Positions 5,771 to 32,791 of a stretch of DNA of 64,000 nt are shown in pieces (within the stretch, counting starts at the first letter, position 1; each line of letters starts with the position of its first letter). Under the pieces are notes generated by a model, which was not told the DNA's origin, did no database searches, and was given only the letters and a program-made list of their open reading frames with translations. Both the position numbers and the translations under genes were made by a program. The DNA comes from Stenotrophomonas maltophilia (GTDB taxonomy: Bacteria > Pseudomonadota > Gammaproteobacteria > Xanthomonadales > Xanthomonadaceae): assembly GCF_006974125.1 (NCBI RefSeq), contig NZ_CP037858.1, positions 2,666,001 through 2,730,000 on the forward strand, written 5' to 3'.

Positions 5771-5774
5771 CACC

Positions 5775-6500
5775 ATGACCTTCATTGAAGTGGTCGACTG
5801 CAGCGTCCAGCTGCCGATCTATGGCACCAACAACCGCTCCATGAAGGGAGCCATCATGTCCGCCGTTACCGGCGGGCGCGTGGCTCCCACCAGCCGCAAC
5901 GTGACCGTGGTGGATTCTCTCCAGAACGTCACCTTCAACCTGCGTGAGGGTGACAAGCTGGGTCTCGTCGGCCATAACGGGGCAGGCAAGACCACGTTGC
6001 TGAAAACACTTGCGGGCGTTTATGAGCCAACTTCTGGCTACATCCGCAGCCAGGGGCGCGTTGCCAATCTGCTGGACGTGACGATGGGCATGGATTTCGA
6101 AGCAACTGGCGTCGAGAACATCCGGTTGAAGGGGTTGCTGCATGGGCTTTCCCGTGCTGAGATCCAAAGCAAGATCCCGCAGATCTGCGAGTTCTCGGGC
6201 CTTGGCCCCTATGTGAACATGCCGGTGCGCGTGTACTCCAGTGGCATGATGGTGCGTCTGGCGTTCTCGATTGCCACCAGTTTCGATGCCGAGATCCTGC
6301 TGATGGACGAATGGTTGGGTGTCGGCGATGCGGACTTCAACGCCCGTGCTCAGCAACGCCTCGCCGAAATCGTACAGAAGGCCAGCATTCTGGTCCTGGC
6401 CAGCCACAATCAGGACATCATCGCCGCCAATTGCAATCGCATCATGCATCTTGAGCATGGGCGCATCACCAGCGATCAGCCGATAGAGGCCCGTGCCTGA
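5775..6500 (+). CDS. wzt: O-antigen ABC transporter ATPase Wzt, short form
   Basis: A 241-residue ATPase with Walker A GHNGAGKTT, signature YSSGMMVRLAF, Walker B ILLMDEWLGVGD and the switch histidine in LASHNQD. It ends just after the nucleotide-binding domain, so it lacks the C-terminal carbohydrate-binding module found in Wzt proteins (around 400 residues) that read a capped chain end. By analogy with short Wzt systems, export is probably not gated by cap recognition. It is followed without a gap by the methyltransferase-glycosyltransferase fusion. Confidence 0.9.
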   Translation: MTFIEVVDCSVQLPIYGTNNRSMKGAIMSAVTGGRVAPTSRNVTVVDSLQNVTFNLREGDKLGLVGHNGAGKTTLLKTLAGVYEPTSGYIRSQGRVANLLDVTMGMDFEATGVENIRLKGLLHGLSRAEIQSKIPQICEFSGLGPYVNMPVRVYSSGMMVRLAFSIATSFDAEILLMDEWLGVGDADFNARAQQRLAEIVQKASILVLASHNQDIIAANCNRIMHLEHGRITSDQPIEARA

Positions 6501-8741
6501 ATGAATACTCGTAACCGGGACTACTGGATCAACAGGAGCGGTGATCTCTATGCCGACCAGCAGAAGATCCGGCGTGAGGCGGGCAACAGCAATTACGCCC
6601 GGCAGGAAGCGTGGCTGGTGGGATTCCTCGCGGAGCGTTCCGAACAACTGGGGCGGCCGGTCCGGGTACTGGATTTCGGGGTGGGCTTCGGACGTCTTGC
6701 GCGGTTGCTGCCGCAGCATGCCTTCGTGGACTACTTCGGTTTCGATATCTCCCCTGCGATGGTGGAGCCGCTGCTGCGTGAACCGCCTGTTGAACTGGCC
6801 GCAGACATCGGGCGTCGCATCCGCGTCGGATCTTCGTTGGCCGAGGCCATGCAGGGGGAGCAGTTTGATGTGATCTTCACCGTCTCGGTGTTGATCCACA
6901 ACGACCGCGAACAGGCGGCAGACGTACTTGCACAGATGCGCGTGTTGCTGGCGCCCGGAGGGCGGCTGTGCTTCATCGAGAACCGGCCGGTGTCGATCAG
7001 CCTGCTGGCCAACCTGTGGCATGCAGGTTGCTGGAGTCATGATTTTGCCGGCACGTTGGCGCCGGACATGAATGTGGACGTCGAAGACGGAATCCTTTCG
7101 GACCATGCCATCTACATTCTGCATGAATCCGCCGCCGGGATCCCACGCCAGCTTCGTGTGCCGGGCGCCCGCGGGTTTGAACCGATCACCGCCGGTGACT
7201 ACCTGTTGCGGACGCTGGAAGCTACCACGGCTGTTGCGCGTGGCATGGAAGTGGAAAGTGCCACGCTTGGCGGCGACATCGCGCAGATGCGTGATGCGGT
7301 GGAACTCTATCGTCAGGCCGAAGAACACGCGCGAACGAATCTGGACATCGCGCGACAGCATCTAGGCGATGACGTGGGTCTGCTGGATGGCATAGGCCAT
7401 CTTACCGCCGCCATTGATGCGCTTCCGGCATTGGCGATGCGTATCGGCGTGCTGGGTGGCGAGACCTCCGTGCAGCACGCCCAGTCCTTGGGGCGGATCG
7501 AAGCGCTGCATGCGCGTGAAGCGACGCTTGTCGAATCGCTGGCGCAGCAGGAGCGAGAGCTTGAGCAGGCGCAGGCCAGGTTGGACGCTGCCCAAAGCGC
7601 CAACCAGCATCTGCAATGGCAGCAGGGCCTTCGTGAACAGGTTCGCCAGGCCCTGAGCAGCCGGATGGATGAGGGCGCCATGCCATACCTCGACGCGCCG
7701 GTGGGTGGCAGTGCATCGGTCGGTCAGCCGGTACCCTCGGTCTACGAGTTCAACGCCCGCCGTGACATGCGTTTCGCGCAGACTGTGGTCGGGCATGAGC
7801 GGGTCTGCCACATCATGCATCAGGAGTGGTTCGGTATCCGCGCGGCCTGCGGCTCGCTGCCGGGGCACAAGCTTGCGGTGACCAGTACCTCAGCGCCCGA
7901 CGCCGGTGATGTTGAGGAGGTGGCCCGTCTGCTTGCCGCCAACAAGGTGAATCGGCTGGTTATCCATGGATTCTCCGACGGCATGTTGCAATGGGTGAAA
8001 GGCCTCGCTGCGGCCGGATTCGACCGGATCTACATGGTCTGGCATGGCGCGCCCTCGATGTGGATCCATGCTGAAGAGCGGCGCCTGTTCGCACTGGCCT
8101 ACAAGGCGGTCCGCACTGGCCTGATCCGCAGGGTCAGTGTCATGCGCGCAGGTTCCCATGCGGCGCTCGCAGATGTAGCGGGCTGGCAGAGGCAGGTCTA
8201 CAACATGCCGCCAGCCTATACCGGCAAGCGCATTCCGCGGCGGGCGACCGGAGCCACCGTATTCATTCCGTCCTGGAATCTGATCCACAAGAACATCTTC
8301 ACGAACGCCGCGGCTGCGGCAGCGACCGGGGAAGTGGCAAACATCTGGCTGATGGCGGATGATTTCGCCTTGCCGTACCGGGTGGACAAGAATGTAAAGC
8401 GTCTTCCAAAACTCAGCCAGTTGCAGATGATGGAGGCGATGTCGCAAGCCGATGCAGTGATGAATGCCTCCATCGTCGACTGCCATCCGATGGTGGAGTT
8501 GGAGGCGCTTGCTGCAGGTACTCCCGCGCTGCGGGGGCGTCTGGGGATGGATGCGCTGGAAGACCATCCCTATGTCGAGATCACCCAGGTGGCCGATCCG
8601 CTCAGCGTTGCCGATGTACGCCAGACGCTGCGCCGGATGTTGGCGGCTCCCGCAGTAGAGATGGATGACATGATGTCGTCCTACTCGCGCCAGATGGTGG
8701 CGTTGTCCTTCGAGCGATACTCAGAATTTATGGAAATCTAA
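6501..8741 (+). CDS. Methyltransferase - coiled coil - glycosyltransferase fusion
   Basis: A 746-residue composite protein. Residues about 30-190 are a class I SAM methyltransferase (VLDFGVGFGRLARLL at 56-70, then FDVIFTVSVLIH). A helical region with heptads (about 255-290 and 320-395, rich in Glu/Gln/Ala) follows. The C-terminal half is a GT4-like glycosyltransferase with a nucleotide-sugar motif, MVELEALAAGTPAL (E666 and E668). It lies in the wzm-wzt operon, so it should act on the O-chain. Methyltransferase plus coiled coil recalls WbdD-type chain terminators; the fused GT is different. Specificity is unknown. Confidence 0.75.
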   Translation: MNTRNRDYWINRSGDLYADQQKIRREAGNSNYARQEAWLVGFLAERSEQLGRPVRVLDFGVGFGRLARLLPQHAFVDYFGFDISPAMVEPLLREPPVELAADIGRRIRVGSSLAEAMQGEQFDVIFTVSVLIHNDREQAADVLAQMRVLLAPGGRLCFIENRPVSISLLANLWHAGCWSHDFAGTLAPDMNVDVEDGILSDHAIYILHESAAGIPRQLRVPGARGFEPITAGDYLLRTLEATTAVARGMEVESATLGGDIAQMRDAVELYRQAEEHARTNLDIARQHLGDDVGLLDGIGHLTAAIDALPALAMRIGVLGGETSVQHAQSLGRIEALHAREATLVESLAQQERELEQAQARLDAAQSANQHLQWQQGLREQVRQALSSRMDEGAMPYLDAPVGGSASVGQPVPSVYEFNARRDMRFAQTVVGHERVCHIMHQEWFGIRAACGSLPGHKLAVTSTSAPDAGDVEEVARLLAANKVNRLVIHGFSDGMLQWVKGLAAAGFDRIYMVWHGAPSMWIHAEERRLFALAYKAVRTGLIRRVSVMRAGSHAALADVAGWQRQVYNMPPAYTGKRIPRRATGATVFIPSWNLIHKNIFTNAAAAAATGEVANIWLMADDFALPYRVDKNVKRLPKLSQLQMMEAMSQADAVMNASIVDCHPMVELEALAAGTPALRGRLGMDALEDHPYVEITQVADPLSVADVRQTLRRMLAAPAVEMDDMMSSYSRQMVALSFERYSEFMEI

Positions 8742-8743
8742 AA

Positions 8744-10915
8744 ATGGGCTTGAGGGTTTTTGTTACCCGCGAACTTTTCCCCTTTACCGCCGGTGGCATT
8801 GGACGCGTGATCGCGAACATGCTGATGACCGCGCCGGAAGAAGATCGCGCGGAGATGGCAGTACTTTACGTTGGCGACAACGTTGAAGCGGATGCGTTCG
8901 CGGTCGCCCACCCGGGCGTGACCTTCCTCGCGTGGCCGCACTCGCGCTTTCAACAAGTAGACGAGCGTGGGGAGATTTTCCCGCCAATGCCGGCGTTCAC
9001 CCACAGCATGCTGCACTGGGAATCGGTGCATGTGCTGCAGGGGCTGCTCGAGCTGGAACGTCTGAAAGGCCCGCTTGAGTATGTCGAGTTCGTGGACTGG
9101 GGGGCACCTGCGTTCGCCGCAACCCAGGAAAAGCTGCTTGGCAGCGCATTGACGACGGCCACGCTGGCCGTGCGCCTGCACACCACAGACAGCATCCTGG
9201 CCGATTTTGAGCCGCGCGTGCAGAGTGTGCACGGGTTGAATCTCTTTGACCTGGAACGAAAGGCGCTGGCCGATTGCGACCTTATCGTCGGTCAGATCGC
9301 ACCGGTTGCCGAGGCCTTCCGCGTGTTCTACGGTTTCAGCGAGGAGGAGTGGACTCCACGCCTGCGCCTGCATGCTCCGCCGGTGTTGCTGGATACGATG
9401 CAGCCGACCACGCAGACCACCGTGATCGATGATACAACGTCGCTGTTGTTCACTTCGAAACTGCAGGACATCAAGCGCCCGGATACTTTCATCCGTGGCT
9501 GCATCCAGTTCCTGCGGGACAGGCCGCGTTATCAGGGCAACATTGTTTTCCTGGCGCATTCTTTTGATGTGAGCTATCAGGAGTATGTCATCTCGCTGGT
9601 GCCGGAGGACCTGCGCAGCCGGGTGGTGTTTGCCCGTGGCGTAACCGGTGCGGCGCGCGAGAAGAGCATTTCTGGTGCGGTATGCGTATTCCCGTCTCCA
9701 TGGGAGTCGTTCTGCCTTGCTGCGTACGAGGCGTCGCTGTCAGGCGCAGCCTGCGTGCTCAACGCGCAGAATCCGGCTTTCGGGCCGGGCAGTCCGTGGC
9801 GGGATGGATACAACTGCAGCACGTTTGATGGCAGCGCCGAAGATCTGGCACGCGCGCTTTCCGGGCTGTTTGAAAGCGCCGTCGGCCGACTGTCGCCGGT
9901 CGAGGTGCCGAAGGACCCGCTTCCCTGGAAGGGGCTTGATCCGGTGGCGGTGCCTGCTGCGGTTCCCCTGGACAGGCAATTGACCGTAGTCGTCGTCAAC
10001 CGCGATAGCGCGGGCCGCGTGTTGAATTCGCTGGACAGCATCCTCGCGTCCAATCTGACGCTTGACAAGCTGATCGTGATTGACGACGCCTCGCGCGACC
10101 CACGCGATATCGCTGTGCTGGACCAGCTGGGCAGCAATGATCCACGTTTGTCCGTGCACCGGCTTGCGGTTCCCGTTGGTGACGCTGTAGCGCGCAACAT
10201 GGGCCTTGCGTTGGTTGAGACGCCGTTTGCTGGATTCGTGCGCGGTGGTGACCAGTTACTGCCGGGCTTCCTCAATGGCGCGGTGAGCGCATTGGCGTCG
10301 CACCCGGATTTTGATGTGGTCGTGGGGCAGGTGGGCGTGACCGTGGATCCCGATGATGTGATCGCCGGCAATGTCGCCCCGGATGGATTCCACATTTTCT
10401 ATGGTGAAGGACGCCTCGCAGGACTCTACGAGAACCGCCTGGCGCCGGAAAGCTACGTGATCCGGACCGAGGCCGCCAGGCGCTTCGCATTCGATCCCGT
10501 CATCCCTGCACTTGAAGTATGGGAAATGATGCTGCGCGCCTGCCAGTCGGGTGCACGCTTCATGGTGACTTCCGCCGTGAACGTGCTTGCACGGCATCAG
10601 GGGCAACCAGATGAACGGCACTTGGAGCAGATCCAGATCGCGATGCGCCGGCGCCTGCAGCGCAAGCGCGTGCGTGTCGGCTCACTGGAGGTACCTGCGT
10701 ACTTCATCTTCGGTGCGCATGTATCGCCGAGCGGGTTCATGGGGGATGCCTCCAACGCGGAAATGGCCTATCGGCTGCAGGCACTGATGGAAAGCGAGTC
10801 CGTGCGCTACACCCTGGCACTTGCCAGGCTTCTGCAGAAGCGGGCGCCATGGGTACTGCGCTTGGGTAAATGGTCGGTGCAGCGACTGGCGCCGATCTAT
10901 CGCCGATTGCGGTGA
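8744..10915 (+). CDS. Large composite glycosyltransferase (GT4 + degenerate GT2)
   Basis: A 723-residue protein whose N-terminal ~400 residues look like a GT4 enzyme (GGIGRVIANML near the start; FPSPWESFCLAAYEASLSGAA is the EX7E-type donor motif). A GT2-like fold follows from about residue 410 (LTVVVVNRDSAGRVLNSLDSIL, VIDDASRD). At the DXD position the GT2 domain has FVRGGDQ (R500-G501-G502) and at the catalytic ED position LEVWE (E591-V592), so the GT2 half is probably inactive or only binds ligand. It probably extends the O-chain; sugar specificity cannot be read. Confidence 0.75.
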   Translation: MGLRVFVTRELFPFTAGGIGRVIANMLMTAPEEDRAEMAVLYVGDNVEADAFAVAHPGVTFLAWPHSRFQQVDERGEIFPPMPAFTHSMLHWESVHVLQGLLELERLKGPLEYVEFVDWGAPAFAATQEKLLGSALTTATLAVRLHTTDSILADFEPRVQSVHGLNLFDLERKALADCDLIVGQIAPVAEAFRVFYGFSEEEWTPRLRLHAPPVLLDTMQPTTQTTVIDDTTSLLFTSKLQDIKRPDTFIRGCIQFLRDRPRYQGNIVFLAHSFDVSYQEYVISLVPEDLRSRVVFARGVTGAAREKSISGAVCVFPSPWESFCLAAYEASLSGAACVLNAQNPAFGPGSPWRDGYNCSTFDGSAEDLARALSGLFESAVGRLSPVEVPKDPLPWKGLDPVAVPAAVPLDRQLTVVVVNRDSAGRVLNSLDSILASNLTLDKLIVIDDASRDPRDIAVLDQLGSNDPRLSVHRLAVPVGDAVARNMGLALVETPFAGFVRGGDQLLPGFLNGAVSALASHPDFDVVVGQVGVTVDPDDVIAGNVAPDGFHIFYGEGRLAGLYENRLAPESYVIRTEAARRFAFDPVIPALEVWEMMLRACQSGARFMVTSAVNVLARHQGQPDERHLEQIQIAMRRRLQRKRVRVGSLEVPAYFIFGAHVSPSGFMGDASNAEMAYRLQALMESESVRYTLALARLLQKRAPWVLRLGKWSVQRLAPIYRRLR

Positions 10916-10934
10916 GCGTTCCGGGGCAGCATCG

Positions 10935-12959
10935 ATGCATGTGATCGTCATCCAGCTGGCGTGTTGGCGTGTTGGCGGAGAGCGGGCTGCATTGGCGCGT
11001 GCCCGCCTGCGCGCGATACCTGCTGCTTCGGTGCTGATCGTTGGCGAGGGAGCGCCGCCCGCCGACCTGCTCGAGGAGTGTACAGAGAGACGCAAACTGT
11101 GCGTGGATTCGCCTTTGCATGCGATGCAGGGCCGACGGTTGCCTGATGTCCGCCGCAGTGGTGACGCGGAGCAGCTCGGTTGGTCATTGGCGGTGATGGC
11201 GGCGCTTCGGGCGCTGCAGCAGGATGTGCACCTGGACTGTGTGGAGATTCCATCGTGTGGTGCGCTGGCCTACGCACTTCTCCAGGAGCGAGCTCTGTCA
11301 GAGGTGTTTGACACTACGCGCGTGATGTTGCGGTTTGACGGCATCCAGGCCATCGAAGTCCTGAGGCAGGGACGCAATGTCGAGATGGCTGCGCTGATGT
11401 TGATGGACATGGAGCGGATGTGCCTGGAGCAATGCGACCAGGTTCTGGTCGATAGTCAGGCGATCGCAGAATCCTTGCAGCGCTTCCTTCCAGGCAGCCA
11501 GAGGCCGCTTCACCTGCAGGCGACGCTGCCGGAGCCGGCCGGGCTCGTGTCGGAGCACCATGCAGTGGGTTCAGCACTGGCTTGCGTCGCAACCGAAGCG
11601 CCTGCTCTCAGGCAGTGCCTGCGGGCGATTTCCGGTTACCTGCAGCAGAACAATGATGGTCTGCTGCAGGTCTCGGTCGTCTGCCAGCCTGCGCTTCTAT
11701 CCGAAGTGCTGCATGTGGTGCCTGCTGCCCTGCGCCATCGTTTCCAGGAAGCGCCTGCGGATTGCCTGCGCGCTTCGCCCATGCGTGTGGTCATGCCTGA
11801 TCGCTGGTCTGCAGGCTCGGCTCTGGCGCGGGAGCTGCTTGCTCATGGCCATAGCCTGATTGTGGATGTCGCCAACCCGGCGCTGGCTGCCGCACAGGGG
11901 TGGGAACAGGGGCGGACCCATCTTGGCTACACGGATGCCCGTGGGCTGTTCGAAGCGCTGCGGGCTTCGCAGCAGTGGGTGCCCACCCGTCACCTGCGGA
12001 TGGGGCCTTCCCCGCCGCTGCCCAAGCTTGACGTTGGTACGCCGGGCCCCGCCAAGGTCTCCGTGGTCGTGCCCTGCTACAACATGGGCCGCTGGCTGCC
12101 GCAGACCTTGCGCAACATACAGCGGTTTTCATGGAGCGATCTGGAGGTCATCGTTGTTGACGATGGATCGACGGATCCCGGCACGGTGCAGCTCATCGAA
12201 GAGCTGGAAGCAAGCCCCACCGCTGGCCTGCGCGTGGTCCGTCTTGAGTTCAACCAGGGATTGTCTGCTGCCAGGAATGCCGGCGTTGCCGCAGCGCAGG
12301 GTGAGTTCACCCTGTGCCTGGACGCGGATGACCTGGTGTCGCCAGAGTTTGTTTCGATTGCTGTACGCGCACTGCAGCGACAGCCTGCGCACGACTTCGT
12401 TGTTCCCCGCTGCGCCTACTTCTTCGGTGACGAATCTGCGCTTGATGTGAACGAGTTGCGGCTCGGCCAGGGCTTGCCAATGGTTGGTGCGGCATTTGAT
12501 TCCGGTACGCTGGGCAATCGTTTCTCAACGGCGACCAGCCTGGCGCGAACTTCGGTACTGCGTGCACTCGGCTATGACGAAAGCCTGCGTTCCTATGAAG
12601 ACTGGCAGCTTTACCGGCGCGCGCTGCAGCAGGGCAGTCGTTTCGTTGTCACCAACGACGTTCATTTTTTCTACCGGCAGCGACCGGATTCAATGATCCA
12701 CGATCCGGCCATGCGCGCTCGCCACAGCCTGCTTTACGCGGAGATGGTGGGCGGAGCGACGTTGATCGGGCAGGGACCGGTGGTGTCGCCGAACCTGCTG
12801 GGAGCGCTGGCCGCTCCCCCGCGGATCGATGGGAGCTCGTCCGGGCTGTTGCTGGGGGGCGTTGTCGAGGCGCTCGACGAGATGCAGGCATTGCGCCGTA
12901 GTCGCATCGTCGGGCTGGGATACAGATTGTCGGCCCTGTTGCGGCGGCTACGTCGTTGA
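10935..12959 (+). CDS. Glycosyltransferase with C-terminal active-looking GT2 domain
   Basis: A 674-residue protein starting at MHVIVIQLACW, 19 bases after the previous stop; an earlier in-frame ATG at 10821 lies inside the upstream gene. The first ~360 residues resemble a GT4-like partner domain without clear motifs. From residue 374 there is a canonical GT2 domain: VSVVVPCYNMGRWL, VIVVDDGSTDPGT, DXD as D463-A464-D465, and the base motif SYEDW (E555-D556). It pairs naturally with the preceding protein, whose GT2 half is degenerate. It is convergent with galE and ends the plus-strand O-antigen block. Confidence 0.78.
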   Translation: MHVIVIQLACWRVGGERAALARARLRAIPAASVLIVGEGAPPADLLEECTERRKLCVDSPLHAMQGRRLPDVRRSGDAEQLGWSLAVMAALRALQQDVHLDCVEIPSCGALAYALLQERALSEVFDTTRVMLRFDGIQAIEVLRQGRNVEMAALMLMDMERMCLEQCDQVLVDSQAIAESLQRFLPGSQRPLHLQATLPEPAGLVSEHHAVGSALACVATEAPALRQCLRAISGYLQQNNDGLLQVSVVCQPALLSEVLHVVPAALRHRFQEAPADCLRASPMRVVMPDRWSAGSALARELLAHGHSLIVDVANPALAAAQGWEQGRTHLGYTDARGLFEALRASQQWVPTRHLRMGPSPPLPKLDVGTPGPAKVSVVVPCYNMGRWLPQTLRNIQRFSWSDLEVIVVDDGSTDPGTVQLIEELEASPTAGLRVVRLEFNQGLSAARNAGVAAAQGEFTLCLDADDLVSPEFVSIAVRALQRQPAHDFVVPRCAYFFGDESALDVNELRLGQGLPMVGAAFDSGTLGNRFSTATSLARTSVLRALGYDESLRSYEDWQLYRRALQQGSRFVVTNDVHFFYRQRPDSMIHDPAMRARHSLLYAEMVGGATLIGQGPVVSPNLLGALAAPPRIDGSSSGLLLGGVVEALDEMQALRRSRIVGLGYRLSALLRRLRR

Positions 12960-13005
12960 GATGCGTGGCAATACCATCGCATCTCAGTGGCTCACCCGGC
13001 AGAAG

Positions 13006-14016
13006 CTACTGCGATCTGCTCATCAGAATCTGTTGCCATCTCCAAGTATCCCGACACATCTTGGCCAGATCCAACTTCGCGCTCCAGCCCAGCCGGCATT
13101 CTGCAAGTGAGGGATCAGCCCAGCATTCACCGATATCGCCTGGTCTCCGGCCAACGATCTCGTAGGGTACCGGTCGTCCCGATGCTTCGCTGAAAGCCCT
13201 GATGACATCGAGTACCGAGTAGGGTATTCCGGTTCCCAGATTCAATGCGTTCAAACCGGAAAGATTAGGTAGTGCCTCCAGTGTTCGAATATGTGCTGTG
13301 GCCAGATCGCATACGTGGATGTAGTCCCGGATGCCGGTTCCATCAGTCGTCGGATAATCCGCACCGAATACCGAAACATGCGAGCGAAGCCCGGCTGCAA
13401 CCTGGGCGATATAGGGCATCAGATTGTTGGGAGTGCCACTGGGCTCTTCCCCCAGTAGCCCGGATTCATGTGCGCCCACCGGATTGAAGTAACGGAGATT
13501 GATCGCCTGCAGTAACGGGTCGGCCAGTTTTGCATCGTTGATGATCTGCTCGACGAAGAGCTTCGTGCGACCGTACGGGCTTGTCGCCGAAGTGGGGGCG
13601 CTTTCATTTATAGGGCAATGGGAAGAATTTCCATAAACCGTTGCCGATGAGCTGAAGACGAGCTTGTGACACGCATTGCGCTGCATGCATTGGAGCAGGT
13701 TGATCGTCCCAGCAACATTGACATCGTAGTAAGCCAGAGGCACAACTGCACTTTCTCCCACGGCCTTGAGAGCCGCGAAGTGCATGACGGCCTCGGGGCG
13801 CTGCTGAAGGAAGGCGCGGTCAAGGGTCGCGCGGTTCCTGATGTCGCCGGTGATGATGTTCACTACGCGGCCGGTGAGCATGTTGAGTCGTTCGCCCACG
13901 TCCGGCCGGGCATTGCTGAAGTCATCGACGACGGTGACTTCGTGCCCCCCAAGCAGAAGCTCGGCACAAACGTGGCTCCCTAGGTAGCCTGCTCCACCGG
14001 TGACCAAAACGCGCAT
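13006..14016 (-). CDS. galE: UDP-glucose 4-epimerase
   Basis: A 336-residue extended short-chain dehydrogenase interconverting UDP-glucose and UDP-galactose (or the N-acetyl forms). [15 protein letters not shown] holds the NAD loop; the YGRTK pair supplies the catalytic Tyr/Lys; NLRYFNPVGAHESGLLGE and GTGIRDYIHVCDLA are GalE hallmarks. The start is the ATG at 14016; 19 further upstream residues are open but lack family similarity. The gene is divergent from the GT-C gene and looks less GC-rich than its neighbours, consistent with exchange at O-antigen loci. It supplies a galactose-type precursor. Confidence 0.9.
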   Translation of the reverse strand: MRVLVTGGAGYLGSHVCAELLLGGHEVTVVDDFSNARPDVGERLNMLTGRVVNIITGDIRNRATLDRAFLQQRPEAVMHFAALKAVGESAVVPLAYYDVNVAGTINLLQCMQRNACHKLVFSSSATVYGNSSHCPINESAPTSATSPYGRTKLFVEQIINDAKLADPLLQAINLRYFNPVGAHESGLLGEEPSGTPNNLMPYIAQVAAGLRSHVSVFGADYPTTDGTGIRDYIHVCDLATAHIRTLEALPNLSGLNALNLGTGIPYSVLDVIRAFSEASGRPVPYEIVGRRPGDIGECWADPSLAECRLGWSAKLDLAKMCRDTWRWQQILMSRSQ

Positions 14017-14131
14017 TCTCTGATCCTGCAATCGGCAAGCTTCATTGTTGCATACAAGCCCTGCCAGGCTCACGCTAGTCTGTTGAGGCGTTGACTAGCC
14101 CCCTGTTTCCGGCTCAAAATCCGCAGTTAGC

Positions 14132-15796
14132 TTGAATTTATCTACCTTAGGCGACCCCGTGAATAGAACCCTACGCTTGCAACGAGTCAGAGCGCTGATG
14201 GCGACGCCCACAGCGCCATTGCTCAGATTGACCCTGCTGGGAGTCGGCCTGGTTCTGGTGCTCCTGCCTGGAGTGCTTCTGATGCGGGAGTTGCTGCACA
14301 TTGGCATGCAGGAAGACGCGATGATCGGACTGCGTCATCTGCGCAACATGCTCGAGGGCAGCGGATTCGTATACAACCGCGGTGAATCGGCACTCGGCGC
14401 GACAAATCCGCTTTTCTGGATCTTCTCGTTCCTTGCCATCAAGCCATTCTACTTGGCAAGTCCGTCCCTCGACGTGTTGGTGGCGCACTACTATTTCTGC
14501 GGGTTTGCGCTGCTGGCAGCGGCTATCGCCTTTGCAATGGCCGCGCCTTCGCGGACTCGCACTGTGTCGGTTGCTGCCATGGCGCTCCTGAGCGTCCTGT
14601 TCTTCTGGCCCCTGCGCTTCCTCTATCTGGGGCTTGAAGGGCCGTTCATGCTCGTATGTGTTGGCGTTCTTGGCCTGCTGGCTGTCCGATCTGTGGGCAC
14701 GCGGGATGGTCTGCTCGCAACACTGGTTGGCTTCCTGTCATGGAACCGGCCGGAAATTGCGCTCATTCTGATTCCTGCAGTCCTCTTCTATGCACTGCTG
14801 ATGTCGGATAAGTCGAGCCGTATCCGGGTCTCAGTCGGCTATCTGGCAGGCGCAGTGGCATTTCCGTTGATGCTGAAGCTCGTATCCGGCGCTTACATCG
14901 CGGGCACAGTGCAGGCGAAGGCATACTTCGGCAATCCCAGTCCACCGTACAATCTTGATTTCTTCGTGCAGCGGATCATCTATCTGGACTCGTTCATCGG
15001 TCTTGGTGGTGGGGTGACGGTGCTTCTGCTGGTGGGCATTTTTGCTTCTGCAATCATCGGCATCCTCGATTTCCTGCAAGGTGATCGCAAGCAGATGCCG
15101 TGGGTTCGAGGCGTGTACCCAGCGTTCGTCGCAGGATATTCGTGTTTCGTCCTGTTCATTCCTTCTCTGTGGGAATGGTATGTAACTTTCTGGCTTTCCT
15201 TCGCGCTGGTCCAGTATGGCGTTCTCATCAGTCGAGGAATCAATTGCTGCTTCTCAGTACTGCGTGGCAATGTAGGCGCAGCCATGCTGGGCGTCACAAT
15301 CGTGCTGTTGTCTACGAGCTGGTTGATGGGACACCGACTTGCAACCCAGCGCACGGAGATCGTCGGTTGGATTACCCAGGACGCGGGTTTCCGTGGCCGC
15401 TTGTCCAAGGAACTGAACGAGCGCTGGCATGCTCGCTCGGTCTGGATGGAGGCTGCTGGCTGGCAGGGTTATTTCAACAATGCGCGCATCTTCGACGAAG
15501 TCGGGCTGGTGGATGATGAAACACAGCCGCTGGCACAGAAGTACGGCTGCGCGTATTTCGTTTCCGCACTCAAGGAGTTGCAGCCACAATTCGTCATCAA
15601 GAGGCAGTTCGAGATGGACCGGAACGTGATGCTGACGCCTCCGCGCAGTTGCCCGAACGCGCCTCTCTTCTCGAATGATGCGGATCGACTCTGGTTTGAT
15701 TCCAACTATGAGGCCGTGGAGCACTACGGAACGCCCGCTCCCGGTTACTTCGGAGAGTATTCATTCCTCGTCCTCTACCGTAGCCGCAACAAGTAG
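14132..15796 (+). CDS. GT-C membrane glycosyltransferase, candidate arabinofuranosyltransferase
   Basis: A 554-residue protein with about ten or more membrane helices and a soluble C-terminal part (about 420-554). The first periplasmic loop has the acidic pair E61-D62 in MQEDAMIGLRHLRNMLEG, then GFVYNRGESALGATNPLFW, the loop pattern of AftB-like and TfpW-like GT-C enzymes that use polyprenyl-phospho-arabinofuranose. It lies beside the minus-strand operon that could make that donor. It probably adds a sugar to exported O-chain or to another envelope acceptor in the periplasm. The start may instead be the ATG at 14198. Substrate assignment is an inference. Confidence 0.72.
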   Translation: MNLSTLGDPVNRTLRLQRVRALMATPTAPLLRLTLLGVGLVLVLLPGVLLMRELLHIGMQEDAMIGLRHLRNMLEGSGFVYNRGESALGATNPLFWIFSFLAIKPFYLASPSLDVLVAHYYFCGFALLAAAIAFAMAAPSRTRTVSVAAMALLSVLFFWPLRFLYLGLEGPFMLVCVGVLGLLAVRSVGTRDGLLATLVGFLSWNRPEIALILIPAVLFYALLMSDKSSRIRVSVGYLAGAVAFPLMLKLVSGAYIAGTVQAKAYFGNPSPPYNLDFFVQRIIYLDSFIGLGGGVTVLLLVGIFASAIIGILDFLQGDRKQMPWVRGVYPAFVAGYSCFVLFIPSLWEWYVTFWLSFALVQYGVLISRGINCCFSVLRGNVGAAMLGVTIVLLSTSWLMGHRLATQRTEIVGWITQDAGFRGRLSKELNERWHARSVWMEAAGWQGYFNNARIFDEVGLVDDETQPLAQKYGCAYFVSALKELQPQFVIKRQFEMDRNVMLTPPRSCPNAPLFSNDADRLWFDSNYEAVEHYGTPAPGYFGEYSFLVLYRSRNK

Positions 15797-16157
15797 CGGA
15801 TACCCGCGCCCGGCTGGCGTCCGGCGGCTGCAGGGCAGCGGAGGCACCACAGCTTCCGCTGCGCCTCCAGGGACGATGATCTGCTCGATGGGGACACTAG
15901 TTGCTCGCTGTACCTAGGTCGTCTGTCGGCGCAGGGATTGACGCCCTTGCCACTGCCTCCGCTGGGGCGTCCCTTCAAGCATGACGGGGCCAGTCGCGAG
16001 CGGTAGGGGGAGGGGCAGATGCATGATCAATGATTGCGCAGGACAACGGCAGGCTGGGCTCCAGCAATTCTCCGGCCTACTGTGCCGCATGGGTGGGATA
16101 TTCCTCCCATGCGGCGGGCTGCATCGCCGGCAACGTGTCAGCTGGCGTCCGGCGCTC
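15797..16157. other. Intergenic region between convergent genes, with terminator-like hairpin
   Basis: No gene is recognised. GCCGCATGGG (16084-16093) pairs with CCCATGCGGC (16106-16115), a 10-bp stem between the convergent GT-C and GtrA genes. The rest has no recognisable transposase remnant in any frame. Confidence 0.5.
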
Positions 16158-16586
16158 TCATTCGTGACGACGGCCTGGCACCGCCGTCTTCTTGAAGACA
16201 AAGTGCGAATCAAGCCTGTACTTCACCGCGTAGCCGATGCTCAGGCCAATGATTCCTCCGACATACCTCATGGCGTCTCCTTCGAACATGAAATGGAAGG
16301 CAGCTTCGGTCCCCCAGAAAATCAGCGTCGTCGCCAGCCCCATAACTACATAAAGGGTGAATGTCTTTGCTTCTTGGGAGGCGCTCTCTGAGCTATGGCC
16401 GAAGATGAAGTGCTTGTCGAGGAAGTACTTGCACAACAGGCCTGTTGCAGTTCCAAGCACGACAGACGCCGGCACCGAATATGGTCCCTGATACAGAAGG
16501 ACAGCCAAGGCCTGGGTGCCGATGTTGACCAGAATGGAGGCGGCCGCAAAGCTCGAGTAGGCAAAGATCAAACGTGATCTGCTCAA
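16158..16586 (-). CDS. GtrA-like membrane protein of the arabinofuranose cassette
   Basis: A protein of about 142 residues with four predicted membrane helices. LGTATGLLCKYFLDKHFIF and LSIGYAVKYRLDSHFVF are the paired helix-end motifs of the GtrA family, implicated in moving polyprenyl-phosphate sugars or supporting their use. The start is taken as TTG at 16586, overlapping the TGA of the upstream gene; the longer open frame upstream runs antisense-like through the DprE2 gene and is rejected. It is the homologue, in type and position, of M. tuberculosis Rv3789, which lies beside dprE1/dprE2. Confidence 0.8.
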   Translation of the reverse strand: MSRSRLIFAYSSFAAASILVNIGTQALAVLLYQGPYSVPASVVLGTATGLLCKYFLDKHFIFGHSSESASQEAKTFTLYVVMGLATTLIFWGTEAAFHFMFEGDAMRYVGGIIGLSIGYAVKYRLDSHFVFKKTAVPGRRHE

Positions 16587-17314
16587 AGCTTGATCCTGCG
16601 GAAAATGAACTCTGGGATATTCTTGATGATCATCATTACTGCCCACCAGAAGCCAGGCAGGTAAGCCACGGATTTGCGCTTTCCAATTGCCTTGAGAATC
16701 CCATTGGCCACCTGTTCCGGTGTCGCCCAGAGTGCTCCCTTCTTGAACGCGGCTGTCATTGGTGTATCGACGAACCCAGGCTTGATGGCCAGTACATTGA
16801 CGCCGCTCGCGTGCAGGCGCTGGCCAAGCCCGCTTAGATAGGTAGTAACGGCGGCTTTTGCACTGCCGTACAGGTAGTTGCTGGCGCGACCGCGATCGCC
16901 CGCCACCGAGGAGATCACGGCCAGAGTAGCGCCATGCTGTAGACGCTGTGCAAGTGCAGCGGCAAGAGCGATCGTCGCGGTGGCATTTGTGGCGAACTCG
17001 TGTAGTGACAGGTCTACAGAGGCATCGCAGGCGGCCTGGTCCGGCAGAGTGCCGTGGGCGATTAGAACGGTATCGATGCCCCCCAACGCTGCCCATGCGT
17101 TGTCCAGCAGTCCACCGTGTGCGGCCACATCGTTCACGTCCAGAACCCCGGTCTCCACACGCTGGGCGCCGCGCACGCGTAGGTCGGCGGCAATGGCATC
17201 AAGCTTCCCGGCGCTACGGCCGACCAGATAGAGCGCCGCGGCACGTCCGGCGTATTGGCGTGCTACCGCCTCGGCGATGGCCGATGTCGCGCCGATGATC
17301 AGGATCTTCTGCAT
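16583..17314 (-). CDS. DprE2-like short-chain dehydrogenase
   Basis: A 243-residue SDR. ILIIGATSAIAEAVARQ is the cofactor loop, ISS holds the catalytic Ser and YGSAK the Tyr/Lys. In the DprE1-DprE2 pair the sugar 2'-keto intermediate made by DprE1 is reduced with NADH/NADPH by DprE2, completing epimerisation of polyprenyl-phosphoryl-ribose to arabinose. It begins two bases after the DprE1-like stop and overlaps the GtrA start, so all are translated together. Without the neighbours this would only be called an SDR; the context makes the assignment likely. Confidence 0.8.
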   Translation of the reverse strand: MQKILIIGATSAIAEAVARQYAGRAAALYLVGRSAGKLDAIAADLRVRGAQRVETGVLDVNDVAAHGGLLDNAWAALGGIDTVLIAHGTLPDQAACDASVDLSLHEFATNATATIALAAALAQRLQHGATLAVISSVAGDRGRASNYLYGSAKAAVTTYLSGLGQRLHASGVNVLAIKPGFVDTPMTAAFKKGALWATPEQVANGILKAIGKRKSVAYLPGFWWAVMMIIKNIPEFIFRRIKL

Positions 17315-17316
17315 GG

Positions 17317-18630
17317 TTACTCCATCACCCGACGCCAGAAGCCGGATGAGAATCGAGGGTCGATGAAATGGGAGAATTGCTCCCAGGCCGGATAGGCCTG
17401 GCGGAACAGCGCGCCGGACATGCGTGCGTCCTTGGCCGGATACACCGCGCCACCGGCGTCGCTGACAATGCGATCGAGGCGCTCCAGCATCGTAAGCAGG
17501 CCCGGGCCGTCATTGGGGAAATCGAGGGCTAGGGTTGTGCCTGGACGCGGGAATGAAAGCATCCCCGGCGACGGGATGTCGCCAAACTCCTTGAGAACAG
17601 CCAAGAACGAGCCGCGACCGCTGCGGGCGATTTCAGCCAGCAAGGCTGCTGCCGCATCGCGAGCGTGCGCAGGCGGCAACACGCACTGGTGCTGCAGGAA
17701 GCCTCGCGGTCCGTACATGCGGTTCCAGTGGTTGATGCCGTCCAATGGATAAAAATAGCTCTGGTAATGCGATACATGGCGTGCCCGATGCGCGGGCTGC
17801 CGCCAGTAGTACAGCGTGTTGAATGGACGCAGAGTAAGGCCGTTGACCAACGAGACCGGGGGGACCAACGGCATGCTGCGTCGTGGGGCTGAACTGGGCG
17901 TGGCCGCTTGAGCGTCGCCGGGTGCGTGGTCGCCGCGAAGGAAATGGCCACGGCCGAGGTTGCGCGCTTTGGCAAGGCAGTCGATCCAGGCCACCGTGTA
18001 CTCATAGCCTGCTGCAGAATCCCGGGAAAGCTCGAAGAATTCATCAAGATTGCCGAATCGGATCGACTCGGTTTCGATCCATGGGCCGGGTACCCGGCGA
18101 AGCTGCAGTTCGGCCCAGGTAATGAATCCGGTCAGGCCCAATCCCCCTGCGGTGGCCGCGAATAGTCCACTACTGTCAGCTGCCGTGAGTTGCTGGCGCG
18201 AACCATCGCTGCGTAGCAGTTCCAAGCGCAGCACATGATGGCAGAAGGTCCCGGCGCGATGGTGGTTCTTGCCGTGCACGTCATTGCCAATGGCGCCGCC
18301 AACGGTGGCGTAGCGTGTGCCCGGTGTCACGGGCAGGAACCAGCCACGTGGCAGTGCAATATCCAGTATGGAGGCCAAGGTTACGCCGGATTCGCAGCGC
18401 ACGACGCCGGTAGCGGGATCAAAATCGATGAATCGGTCCAGTCCGTGGCTGGTGAGCAGCGTGGCATCCGGGTTCAGGCAACTGTCGCCATAACTGCGGC
18501 CATTGCCGTGAGGCAGCACCGAGCCCCCATCGACAGGCAATGGCAGCGGAACGTCGCGGTCGAAAACCGGCACTATCCGCTGATTGACTCGCGGATAGCG
18601 CCCCCAGGATTGGCCGGCCGGTGCTCTCAT
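17317..18630 (-). CDS. DprE1-like FAD-dependent polyprenylphosphoryl-ribose 2'-oxidase
   Basis: A 437-residue flavoenzyme of the vanillyl-alcohol-oxidase type. PHGNGRSYGD (40-49) and GGAIGNDVHGKNHH (111-124, with H119) bind FAD; FLAVLKEFG, LSFPRPG and YPAKDAR (with K400) align with the mycobacterial DprE1 active-site region. The position of its benzothiazinone-target Cys is A368 (PGTTLALDFP). It oxidises the ribose 2'-OH in polyprenyl-phospho-arabinose synthesis. The start is MRAPAG at 18630 because its ATGA overlaps the stop of the UbiA gene; nine more residues are open upstream. Confidence 0.85.
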   Translation of the reverse strand: MRAPAGQSWGRYPRVNQRIVPVFDRDVPLPLPVDGGSVLPHGNGRSYGDSCLNPDATLLTSHGLDRFIDFDPATGVVRCESGVTLASILDIALPRGWFLPVTPGTRYATVGGAIGNDVHGKNHHRAGTFCHHVLRLELLRSDGSRQQLTAADSSGLFAATAGGLGLTGFITWAELQLRRVPGPWIETESIRFGNLDEFFELSRDSAAGYEYTVAWIDCLAKARNLGRGHFLRGDHAPGDAQAATPSSAPRRSMPLVPPVSLVNGLTLRPFNTLYYWRQPAHRARHVSHYQSYFYPLDGINHWNRMYGPRGFLQHQCVLPPAHARDAAAALLAEIARSGRGSFLAVLKEFGDIPSPGMLSFPRPGTTLALDFPNDGPGLLTMLERLDRIVSDAGGAVYPAKDARMSGALFRQAYPAWEQFSHFIDPRFSSGFWRRVME

Positions 18631-20045
18631 ATTGCGATCAGGACGATGAGGAGGCACAAGCCGATCACGATTTGACTACTACGGTCTGTCGCAGCGAATA
18701 CGATGGGATCGTCATGCATGTCGCCACGGTGAGAGACGATCCACATGCGGCTGATCCAGTACAACAGGATCGGACAAAGGAGCCATAGCAGTTTCGGGCT
18801 GGTGTATAGCTCCAGGCTTTCGGGGCTGTTGATGTACAGCGCGAATACCAGCACGCCTATGTAACCCGCGGCGGCTCCCAATGATTGCACCAGCGGCAGG
18901 TCGGCCACGGAGTAGCCACGGCCGATGGCCACTTCCTTGCCACTGGCCAGCGCCGAAGCCAGTTCCGTATAGCGCTTGAGCATGGCCAGGCTGAGGAACA
19001 CGAACATCGAGAAAGCCAACAGCCAGAACGAGAGTTCAGAGCTGATTGCCACTGCGCCGCCGATGATACGCACGGTGTACAGCGCCGCCAGCATTACGAC
19101 GTCAATCATCACAATGCGCTTGAGCTTGAGGGAGTAGCTCAGTGTCATTACGTAATAGCACAGCAACACGCCGGCGAAGGCTGGGCTACAGGCAAGGGCG
19201 AGTGCGAATCCGGCCAGCGTGATCAGCGGGGCTGCCAGCAGCCCGTGCAGCAATGGGAGCGTCCCGGCGGCAAATGGCCTCCGGCGCTTGCGCGGATGCA
19301 TACGATCGGGAGTCAAGTCCAGCAGGTCGTTGAGCAGGTAGACGCCTGACGCGCACAGGCCGAATGCCAGGAAGGCCACCCCGGCATCGACGACCGAGCC
19401 GAGGTCGAAGAAGCGGTGGGCAGTCAGCAAGGGCACCAGCACCAGCAGGTTCTTCAGCCACTGATAGACGCGAAGGGCCTTGATCCAGGTGAGCAGGCCT
19501 CCGTTCTGAGATGGCAGGTGGGCCAGGACTTCCGTCCGCGTGCTTGCCGCGCGGACCAGCCCATTGCCATTGTTGACAACAATGGCTCCTCCGGCGTGTG
19601 CCCAGACCTTCAGGTCGACCTGGCCGTTACCCATATAGTCGAAGCCGCGTTCACCGAAGCGCTCCGCCAATGCCTGCCCTTTGTTGGTGCCGGACAGGTT
19701 GGTGTACCCATCGCTGGCCATGACCTCTTCGAACAGGTCCAGATGGTCGGCAATGGGTTGGACCAGCAGCCGGTCCGATGCCGTACACAGTACGCGCGGC
19801 CGTTGCGTGGTGGTGCGTAGAATTTCCAGGACCCGCTCGTCATAAGGCAAAATTGCTGCGGGCAATTGCACGCGCGAGGCCAGTTGGCGCTTCACATACG
19901 CCTTGCCTTTCAACAGCCAGAAGGGAATCAGGAAGACATACAGTGGATTGTGCGCCAACAGCGCCAACAAGGACTCGTAGAGGATGTCAGAACGCAGTAG
20001 GGTTCCATCAAGATCCACGCAAAGCGGTCGATTGGAAGCCGTCAC
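18627..20045 (-). CDS. HAD phosphatase-UbiA prenyltransferase fusion (phosphoribosyl-lipid synthase candidate)
   Basis: A fusion of about 472 residues. The N-terminal ~190 residues are a HAD hydrolase (DLDGT near residue 11, TASDR, YMGNGQVD). The C-terminal ~290 residues are a UbiA prenyltransferase with the Mg-diphosphate motif NDLLDLTPDRMHPRKRRRP (from about residue 239) and about nine membrane helices. The mycobacterial UbiA Rv3806c joins PRPP to decaprenyl phosphate; the HAD part could then remove the 5-phosphate. A GTG at 20045 is chosen because it places DLDGT where this family has it; a TTG at 20138 would add 31 residues and neither has a strong ribosome site. Confidence 0.8.
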   Translation of the reverse strand: MTASNRPLCVDLDGTLLRSDILYESLLALLAHNPLYVFLIPFWLLKGKAYVKRQLASRVQLPAAILPYDERVLEILRTTTQRPRVLCTASDRLLVQPIADHLDLFEEVMASDGYTNLSGTNKGQALAERFGERGFDYMGNGQVDLKVWAHAGGAIVVNNGNGLVRAASTRTEVLAHLPSQNGGLLTWIKALRVYQWLKNLLVLVPLLTAHRFFDLGSVVDAGVAFLAFGLCASGVYLLNDLLDLTPDRMHPRKRRRPFAAGTLPLLHGLLAAPLITLAGFALALACSPAFAGVLLCYYVMTLSYSLKLKRIVMIDVVMLAALYTVRIIGGAVAISSELSFWLLAFSMFVFLSLAMLKRYTELASALASGKEVAIGRGYSVADLPLVQSLGAAAGYIGVLVFALYINSPESLELYTSPKLLWLLCPILLYWISRMWIVSHRGDMHDDPIVFAATDRSSQIVIGLCLLIVLIAI

Positions 20046-20423: not shown

Positions 20424-21362
20424 TTACAGCGCCTTTTCCAGCTCCGGCAGGATCGCAAACAGATCTCCCACCAGGCCGATATCGGCAATCTCAAAGATCG
20501 GCGCATCGCCGTCCTTGTTGATCGCGACGATGGTGCCGGCATCCTTGATGCCGGTCAGGTGCTGGATCGCGCCACTGATGCCGACCGCCACATACAGTTC
20601 CGGCGCGATGATCTTGCCGGTCTGGCCGACCTGCAGGTCGCTGGGCACATAGCCGGCATCAACTGCGGCACGCGAAGCACCGACGGCGGCACCGAGCTTG
20701 TCCGCCAGCTGGAAGATGACCTTGAAGTTCTCTTCCGAGCCGACGCCACGGCCGCCGGAGACCACGCGCTTGGCGCTCTGCAGGTCCGGGCGGTCGCTGG
20801 CACCGGCGGCCAGGCCGATGAAGCGGGTATGGGTCGGCAGGGCAGCATCGACGCTGGCCGCTTCAATGGCGGCAATGCCGCCCTGGGCGGCTTCCGGCCA
20901 CGAGGCGGCACGCACGGTGGCGACCACGATCTGGTCGGCAGGTGCTTCCACGGTGATGATCGCGTTGCCAGCGTAGATCGGGCGCTTGAAGGTGTGGCTG
21001 CCTTCGACGGTCATCAGGTCGGAGACCTGGTTGACGCCGAGCAGGGCGGCCACGCACGGCATCAGGTCCTTGCCGAAGGTGGTCGACGGTCCGAACACGT
21101 GGGTGTAGCCCTTGGCCAACTGCGCGATCTGCGGCGCGAGCACCTGGGCGATGGCCTGCGCGTTGGCGGCGTTGGCCACGGTCAGGACCTTGGCAACGCC
21201 GGCGATCTTCGCGGCCTCAGCAGCGACGGCGGCCGGATCGGCGGCCAGTACCACGACATCAATGCTGGCACCGCTGATGGCGGCGGCGGCACTGACGGTC
21301 TTGGCGGTGGCGGCGTTGAGCTTGCCGTCGTGGTGCTCGGCGATGACGAGAATCTTGCTCAT
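20424..21362 (-). CDS. etfA: Electron transfer flavoprotein alpha subunit
   Basis: A 312-residue FAD-binding subunit passing electrons from acyl-CoA and other dehydrogenases to ETF-ubiquinone oxidoreductase. [19 protein letters not shown] opens the N-terminal domain. The C-terminal FAD domain carries [39 protein letters not shown] and AINKD, all family signatures. It is the second gene of etfBA, with its ATG overlapping the etfB stop by one base. It is the conserved right border of the xanthomonad LPS locus. Confidence 0.95.
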
Positions 21363-22108
21363 TACAGCAACCCCTTCTGCTTGAGTGCGGCAACCAGTTC
21401 AGCCGCGTCCTTGACCATCACGCCCTTGCTGCGCTTGGACGGCGCGGCGTACTGGGTGGTCTTGAAGGTGTCGGCGGCTTCAACGCCGAGGTCGGCCAGC
21501 TGCAGGGTTTCCAGCGGCTTGGCCTTGGCCTTCATGATGTCCGGCAGCTTGATGAAGCGCGGCTCGTTCAGGCGCAGGTCGGTGGTGACCACGGCCGGCA
21601 GATCCACTTCCAGCGTTTCCAGGCCGGCGTCGACTTCACGGGTGACCGTGGCCTTGCCGTCGGCGATCTCGAGCTTGCTGGCGAAGGTCGCCTGCGGGCG
21701 GCCCCACAGCGTGGCCAGCATCTGGCCGGTCTGGTTGGCGTCGTCGTCGATGGCCTGCTTGCCGAGGATCACCAGGTCCGGCTGTTCCTTCTCGATCAGC
21801 TTGAGCAGGGTGCGCGAGGCGGTCAGCGGCTGGATGGCTTGGTCGGTGACGACGTGGATGGCACGGTTTGCGCCCATGGCCAGTCCGTTGCGCAGGTGCG
21901 CCTGGGCGTCGGCCGGGGCGATGGTGGCGACCACCACTTCGCTGGCGATGCCCTTGTCGCGCAGGCGCAGGGCTTCTTCCAGGGCGATTTCGTCGAAGGG
22001 GTTGGGGGACAGCTTGACGCCGTCGGTGACCACGCCGGAACCGTCCGGCTTGACCTGAATGCGGACGTTGTAGTCCACCACGCGCTTGTACGCGACGAGG
22101 ATTTTCAT
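21362..22108 (-). CDS. etfB: Electron transfer flavoprotein beta subunit
   Basis: A 248-residue AMP-binding subunit, partner of EtfA. MKILVAYKRVVDYNVRIQVKPDGSGV, the NPFDEIALEEALRL region and ILGKQAIDDDANQTGQML are classic EtfB motifs; the C-terminal anchor helix ends the chain. It is first in the operon. A TAGAAT-like -10 element lies upstream on the minus strand at 22183-22188, without a convincing -35. Confidence 0.95.
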   Translation of the reverse strand: MKILVAYKRVVDYNVRIQVKPDGSGVVTDGVKLSPNPFDEIALEEALRLRDKGIASEVVVATIAPADAQAHLRNGLAMGANRAIHVVTDQAIQPLTASRTLLKLIEKEQPDLVILGKQAIDDDANQTGQMLATLWGRPQATFASKLEIADGKATVTREVDAGLETLEVDLPAVVTTDLRLNEPRFIKLPDIMKAKAKPLETLQLADLGVEAADTFKTTQYAAPSKRSKGVMVKDAAELVAALKQKGLL

Positions 22109-29616: not shown

Positions 29617-29850
29617 CGAACCAGTCCATCCGGATAGAGAAACCCGATTATAGCGGGAGGGTCTGCAAACGGCCGGTGAGCCAGGGGCGCCCGGCCAGTA
29701 GCGTTGGCATGGGAGTGGGGCCGGCCGATTCCCCGTCGATGGGCCATGGCCAGCAGGCAGTTCGCATACAATTGCGCGCTGACGACCGAGGACATGGCCC
29801 GAGTGGCCATCGCCGATTGGCCTGCTGTTCCAGAAGGATCGAGGTTTGCT

Positions 29851-30807: not shown

Positions 30808-30817
30808 GGTGGCGACG

Positions 30818-32740: not shown

Positions 32741-32791
32741 CCCGGGTGCTGCTGGCGCATTGGTTTTTCCGTTGGTTCCCTGAAACGTTTC

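Follow-up and report, generated by a model that had tools for sequence, protein, structure and literature searches.

A strain of Stenotrophomonas maltophilia carries, in the interval between metB and etfA, an O-antigen island in which genes predicted to make a lipid-linked arabinofuranose (Araf) stand beside a gene for a transferase related to mycobacterial AftB. We describe this island in a window of 64,000 nucleotides (assembly GCF_006974125.1, contig NZ_CP037858.1, positions 2,666,001 to 2,730,000 of the forward strand), taken from a single-contig genome of 4.55 Mb; positions below are those of the window. The plus strand holds wzm, wzt, a gene for a 746-aa methyltransferase protein and genes for two large glycosyltransferases. 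These are followed by galE on the minus strand and by a gene for a glycosyltransferase of the C fold (GT-C) on the plus strand. After it, all on the minus strand, come the genes of a GtrA-family protein, a DprE2-like short-chain dehydrogenase/reductase (SDR), a DprE1-like flavoenzyme and a HAD-UbiA fusion (Table 1). A preliminary description had read the last four as a coupled operon next to the GT-C gene, and all five genes are found at the place and in the orientation that it gave.

The operon is tightly packed. The stop codon of the HAD-UbiA gene and the start codon of the DprE1-like gene share the letters ATGA, a gap of 2 bp separates the DprE1-like and DprE2-like genes, and the end of the latter overlaps the TTG start of the GtrA gene by 4 bases. 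The HAD-UbiA protein scores 679.5 bits against NF006088/PRK08238 (cut-off 351), and its UbiA part matches the solved Rv3806c of M. tuberculosis (PDB 8j8j, E 2.4e-27). It has the HAD motif DLDGT at residue 11, NDLLDLTPDRMHPRKRRRP at 239 and KRYTEL at 357; NDLLDLTPD and KRYTEL are the UbiA motifs. The UbiA motifs are offset by a constant 8 from N247, D248, D251, D255, R366 and E369 of Citrobacter ORF15, as expected if the two proteins are collinear; these ORF15 residues have been probed by mutation (PMC11127046). A HAD-UbiA with intact motifs, by which three-component systems of this kind can be recognized, is therefore present. The codon at 20045, the end given in the preliminary description, is GTG, and the matches of most relatives begin nearby, at residues 23-36 of the longer frame, while some of the nearest relatives begin matching at residues 1-14.

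The DprE1-like protein has solved DprE1 as its best PDB match (4aut, E 7e-76, over most of its length), and shows the flavin adenine dinucleotide (FAD)-binding fold and the HGKNHH, GFLQxQ and AKD motifs of that structure. Across 31 aligned DprE1 sequences, from the window and 30 fetched loci, these motifs are retained save for one P in place of the last His, with x being H in 26 and Y in five. The DprE2-like protein passes NF005489 (329.2 bits, cut-off 267) and has YGSAK at residue 149. Neither reaches the equivalog model of its mycobacterial namesake: the DprE1-like protein scores 364.4 bits against a cut-off of 500, and the DprE2-like protein 182.7 bits against 250 (NF053786). By these scores the two are homologs that lie outside the curated mycobacterial equivalogs. 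GtrA scores 173.9 bits with NF037976 (cut-off 50) and 34.3 bits with PF04138 (cut-off 26.1). With the exception of the GT-C, the family and PDB matches of the cassette genes are far beyond chance. HAD-UbiA, DprE1 and GT-C each have a single match in this genome.

The residue aligned to index 394 of M. smegmatis DprE1, a cysteine that we take to be the benzothiazinone target, is Ala377 in the window (codon 17527-17529) and alanine in all 31 sequences, none of which has a cysteine there; two residues earlier stands Thr375, also in 31/31. Benzothiazinones would not be expected to bind an enzyme of this type covalently.

The GT-C is harder to place. No Pfam or NCBIfam family matches it at E 0.001, and a PDB sequence search with the protein alone gave nothing useful. 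A profile search of the PDB returned AftB as its only match, with a modest E of 2.8e-4, and AftB was also the top match and nearest solved structure in a fold search. AftB was not returned for five other GT-C queries from islands, and it ranked low for a folded control. The two proteins are identical at 53 of 205 aligned positions. In AftB, D62 is catalytic, R221, R372 and T91 contact the phosphate, E172 contacts the C5 hydroxyl, and T274 contacts the fluorine of a 2-fluoro-arabinofuranose analog (PMC12041299). Arg372 falls outside the aligned stretch; the five residues that can be mapped (Asp62, Thr91, Glu172, Arg221 and Thr274) are all retained, as D62, T91, E169, R206 and T259. They are also conserved within the GT-C family (D62 in 14/14, one row having no residue there; T91, E169 and R206 each in 15/15; T259 in 14/15). 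The DD motif of AftB is absent, being ED in all 14 rows with residues at that point. These comparisons make the GT-C a distant homolog of AftB, and the resemblance to arabinofuranosyltransferases noticed in the preliminary description is real, pointing to AftB by both profile and fold. That description had also proposed a structure-based search of the whole set: AftB came out at the top of the GT-C fold search, and 4aut and 8j8j were found for DprE1 and Rv3806c as PDB matches. The start of the GT-C gene is probably the ATG at 14198, where P0001 also begins; upstream of it the predicted local distance difference test (pLDDT) score is low.

The distribution of these genes across the genus gives a second line of evidence. 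HAD-UbiA occurs in 35 of 91 Stenotrophomonas genomes, our own included, although the match in one of them (G087) is only 31% and that genome was left out; we fetched 33 islands with this gene in addition to the window. Of these, 23 have DprE1 together with DprE2 and the other ten have neither. A GtrA-type gene is found in 23/23 islands with DprE1 and in 0/10 without it, and the pattern for an ArnF/SMR-type gene is the exact opposite (0/23 and 10/10). Gene calling missed some genes (e.g. the FAD protein and SDR of L089) and the family counts were repeated by tblastn, which confirmed both patterns; these counts ignore kinship between the genomes. The flippase type, then, splits with DprE1. The close GtrA type of the window is seen only in L063, L084 and L106 among the fetched islands, L106 having been picked for its GT-C, whereas a longer cassette type, whose GtrA is of another kind, accounts for 21 of the 23 islands with DprE1. 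The GT-C itself is rare, occurring in 2 of the 91 genomes, ours and G039 (99% identical), whose copies of the four cassette genes are 97-99% identical to those of the window.

Outside the genus, it is instructive to see which genes the GT-C travels with. In G365, from another genus of the family (g7, probably Xanthomonas; the homolog P0005 is named X. sacchari), the unit is retained in order and in mirrored orientation: etfB, etfA, HAD-UbiA, DprE1, DprE2, GtrA, GT-C, galE, GT712, GT723, MT746 and wzt, where the fetched stretch ends. Identities outside etfAB are 34-85%. The same GtrA-DprE2-DprE1-HAD-UbiA set lies among other genes in L084, which has no match to the window GT-C; a membrane protein of another kind (768 aa) stands there instead. 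Of 96 genomes from a myxobacterial family, two (G452 and G512) have a strong GT-C match and eight more a weak and partial one. In both, the GT-C gene adjoins homologs of MT746, GT723 and GT712, whereas HAD-UbiA-DprE1-DprE2 is on another contig in G452 and DprE1 is about 2.4 Mb away in G512. This association ties the GT-C to the acceptor (backbone) genes rather than to the donor genes.

How might the system work? The sequence itself shows which genes are present, how they are coupled, what motifs they encode and with what they co-occur, as well as the homology of the GT-C to AftB. In the route that we propose, HAD-UbiA, DprE1 and DprE2 would make undecaprenyl-phospho-D-Araf, GtrA would flip the lipid-linked sugar to the periplasmic side, and the AftB-related GT-C would move D-Araf onto the O-polysaccharide exported by Wzm/Wzt. 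We consider this route likely. It draws on the biochemical precedent of Citrobacter, where HAD-UbiA, a flippase and a GT-C add pentofuranoses to O-antigens in the periplasm (Kelly et al. 2024, PMC11127046). It also draws on the correlation reported there, by which DprE1/E2 homologs are assigned to arabinofuranose, a prediction that extends to Araf glycans including O-antigens; such homologs are present in the window. The preliminary description had placed a polyprenyl-phospho-D-Araf route in an ATP-binding cassette (ABC) transporter O-antigen island. The route and its setting are supported by the results above; we infer the sugar and the acceptor with its own sugars, and likewise the linkage, the activities of the enzymes and the part of GtrA as flippase.

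AftB is a retaining enzyme that produces beta-D-Araf, so its kinship suggests a beta linkage for the product of the GT-C. More tentatively, an AftB-type retaining enzyme outside the Actinobacteria may here cap or branch an ABC-exported O-antigen with beta-D-Araf, this enzyme type being a swappable acceptor module common to Stenotrophomonas, Xanthomonas and myxobacteria. A beta-D-Araf linkage is not among the other known side chains given in Kelly et al. (PMC11127046). A variant of the same explanation, which we find plausible without holding it to be probable, is that the O-antigen D-Araf is alpha-linked by an inverting GT-C, in which case the kinship with AftB would reveal the donor but say nothing of the linkage. 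Alpha linkages are found in all pentofuranose side chains covered in PMC11127046 except one, and the catalytic Asp is common to retaining and inverting GT-C enzymes (PMC12041299).

The donor might also be made as proposed and its D-Araf passed to type IV pilin, another glycoprotein or the lipopolysaccharide (LPS) core, given that P. paraeruginosa puts D-Araf on pilin (PMC12369383) and Azorhizobium arabinosylates Nod factors (PMC2443382). That the only match to this GT-C in the genome sits in the O-antigen island, and that its relatives adjoin backbone glycosyltransferase genes in G365, G452 and G512, makes such an acceptor unlikely. A further reading would have the cassette make a different pentofuranose, either ribofuranose (Ribf) used directly or another epimer, in a DprE1-like pocket that differs from the mycobacterial one. 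Thr375 and Ala377 do replace residues aligned to mycobacterial Asn and Cys in 31/31 sequences, the equivalog cut-offs of DprE1 and DprE2 are not reached, and Citrobacter ORF12 takes both Ribf and xylofuranose (Xylf) donors (PMC11127046). That said, 10 of 33 HAD-UbiA systems of the same genus do without DprE1/E2, so these are no default part of such systems. Moreover, their homologs are reported where the glycan has Araf (PMC11127046), and the GT-C retains the residue through which AftB contacts the analog at its C2 position; a different pentofuranose is, in our judgement, improbable. Least credible of all is a silent or decayed cassette, which we would be very surprised to find with four genes that are open, tightly packed, intact in their catalytic motifs and 97-99% identical to the G039 copies.

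Comparison with known systems helps to place the route proposed here, D-Araf added to an exported O-antigen. The Citrobacter youngae O1/O2 system (PMC11127046) shares the N-terminal HAD-UbiA fusion, a flippase gene, a GT-C and an ABC-exported O-antigen, but the window has GtrA in place of a MATE flippase, together with DprE1/DprE2 and an AftB-related GT-C. No MATE flippase was matched among the scanned island proteins, the rest of the genome not having been searched for one. With the mycobacterial pathway the window shares homologs of Rv3806c, DprE1, DprE2 and AftB, the last with its mappable catalytic and donor residues retained. It differs in having its phosphatase as a HAD domain fused to UbiA, in an acceptor that is probably an O-antigen, in a DprE1 without the Cys to which the drugs bind, and in equivalog scores of DprE1 and DprE2 that fall below the cut-offs. 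P. paraeruginosa arabinosylates its pilin (PSPA7_6245-6251, TfpW) and likewise has a Gram-negative, UbiA-type route to D-Araf, but with pilin as acceptor, alpha-1,5 oligomers (PMC12369383) and no fused phosphatase (PMC11127046). The preliminary description had drawn a likeness to P. aeruginosa genes; the fusion resembles Citrobacter ORF15 instead, the P. aeruginosa UbiA enzyme being without a phosphatase domain according to PMC11127046. In Azorhizobium, noeCHOP also serve Gram-negative D-arabinosylation with genes similar to the mycobacterial ones, the acceptor there being a Nod factor (PMC2443382).

A separate Gram-negative use of the mycobacterial pathway, which had been put forward as new, is already in print (PMC12369383, PMC2443382) and was predicted in PMC11127046. 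The gene set is real and intact and of a known kind, and the new part would be the AftB-related transferase type. A targeted literature search found no description of an AftB homolog in a Gram-negative O-antigen locus, and this is our sole basis for calling the type undescribed. The most useful new points are the kinship with AftB, with its matching residues, and the flippase-type split that follows DprE1. With donor genes for lipid-linked Araf and an AftB-related transferase gene side by side, the island gives a concrete Gram-negative case in which to test, outside mycobacteria, which linkage AftB-type enzymes make and whether GtrA flips pentose lipids.

The genus also holds what seem to be matched Ribf-, Xylf- and Araf-type loci, most of which share a single chromosomal site. 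They form a natural series in which to follow the switching of surface antigens by exchange of GT-C, flippase and epimerase genes. Where DprE1 is missing (ten islands), the locus resembles the Ribf or Xylf systems of Citrobacter. SMR-type flippases occur in related systems, and Stenotrophomonas is among the groups with alpha-Ribf in LPS, Xanthomonas systems being more elaborate (PMC11127046). Four of the ten share a GT-C of type c45. Between this GT-C and the ArnF-type gene an SDR is present in L085 and L087 and missing from L086 and L088, a difference reminiscent of the Xylf/Ribf switch between Citrobacter O2 and O1; the GT-Cs of L086 and L087 are 83% identical. In one island (L066, at G089:C25:166484-167414) two extra partial HAD-UbiA matches (78%) stand beside the full one, like pieces of a second copy.

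Table 1. Genes of the O-antigen island and its edges, in window coordinates
Feature	Position	Strand	Basis and remarks
metB	3741-4913		named by eye; left island edge
wzm-wzt, ABC exporter of O-polysaccharide (Wzt 241 aa)	4910..6500	+	PF12698 E 3.8e-6 (below cut-off); PF00005 69.3 bits
Backbone genes: 746-aa methyltransferase-containing protein (MT746), 723-aa and 712-aa glycosyltransferases (GT723, GT712)	6501..12959	+	PF08242, PF00535
GalE	13006..14016 (open frame to 14073)	-	TIGR01179 409.6 bits, cut-off 262.3
AftB-related GT-C, predicted O-antigen arabinofuranosyltransferase	14198..15796 (open frame from 14132)	+	
GtrA-family membrane protein, candidate undecaprenyl-P-Araf flippase	16158..16586	-	NF037976, PF04138
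DprE2-like SDR reductase, predicted reduction to arabino configuration	16583..17314	-	NF005489, NF053786
DprE1-like FAD oxidase, predicted C2 oxidation of undecaprenyl-P-ribofuranose	17317..18630	-	PDB 4aut, motifs
HAD-UbiA fusion, predicted phosphoribosyl pyrophosphate (PRPP):undecaprenyl-phosphate phosphoribosyltransferase; N-terminal HAD phosphatase predicted to remove the 5-phosphate	18627..20045	-	
etfA-etfB, conserved xanthomonad LPS locus boundary	20424..22108	-	names by eye

The island is bounded by etfA, whose identity is 89-99% in the fetched Stenotrophomonas islands (full-length matches) and 82-85% in eight islands of other genera; this boundary of the xanthomonad LPS locus has already been described (PMC2238763). 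The G+C fraction is 0.57-0.58 in 2-kb windows over 13001-17000, against 0.66-0.68 at the left edge and 0.63-0.70 to the right of 20000, which fits an imported block. Beyond etfAB follow rmlB and rmlA (named by eye) and rmlC, rmlD and a ManC-type gene (Pfam matches). The rml genes would make L-rhamnose available, and it may be a component of the backbone. GalE was considered as a lipid-pentose epimerase and rejected: it scores above the equivalog cut-off for UDP-glucose 4-epimerase, and in the myxobacterial loci with the GT-C the only matches to it are SDRs at about 27%. A second copy of this epimerase lies elsewhere in the genome (G000:C1:1086832, 54%) and galE is retained in the G365 island; the island GalE is probably for a backbone sugar.

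The LPS locus of S. maltophilia R551-3, printed in 2007 with SDR, oxidoreductase and membrane-protein orthologs (Patil et al., PMC2238763), is at the same chromosomal site, and is probably the same island. It spans 15.3 kb with wzm, wzt and five unrelated genes; 10 open reading frames are listed for it, against the 11 that we count, and what PMC2238763 says of the locus states no sugar function. In the same source Xoo BXO8 and Xac 306 carry a longer cassette.

In the longer cassette type noted above among the fetched islands (L064-L083, L089, L096-L102, e.g. L101:6898-9166; L131:8297-15234), DprE1, DprE2 and HAD-UbiA are joined by an extended SDR and an FAD protein (PRK07233), and often by a methyltransferase and an LPG-synthase-TM protein as well. 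The FAD+SDR pair is found in 21/23 Stenotrophomonas islands with DprE1 (the SDR being partial in L089) and in 0/10 without, as well as in all seven islands from other genera (L096-L102), which were picked from DprE1 matches and are not a sample. It is also present on a Burkholderia stagnalis plasmid, adjoining isonitrile synthase genes. The window holds no remnant of this cassette, the best tblastn match (E 0.002) being a 35-residue methyltransferase stretch. L-xylose differs from D-arabinose only in its configuration at C4, and the pair might convert lipid-linked Araf to L-xylose. Beta-L-xylose is carried in non-stoichiometric amounts by the Ralstonia O-antigen (PMC10450222).

Full-length DprE1 matches (E < 1e-100) were found in 40 of 297 sampled genomes of the family; the remaining matches among the 141 reported genomes are weak ones of the FAD family. 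In the myxobacterial family (L119-L128, L130, family of G452) DprE1 is matched at E 1e-40 or better in 90/96 genomes; in G452 it adjoins HAD-UbiA and DprE2. An Araf-type pathway may be near-universal in this family. Because DprE1 is so common in this family, its co-occurrence with the GT-C was dropped as uninformative. Finally, the genome has three GtrA matches, two of them inside the window: the second belongs to another gtr-type set at 29704-34397, comprising an SDR epimerase, a GtrB-like GT2 and GtrA (31740-32144), beyond which lies a 416-aa open frame with no Pfam match.

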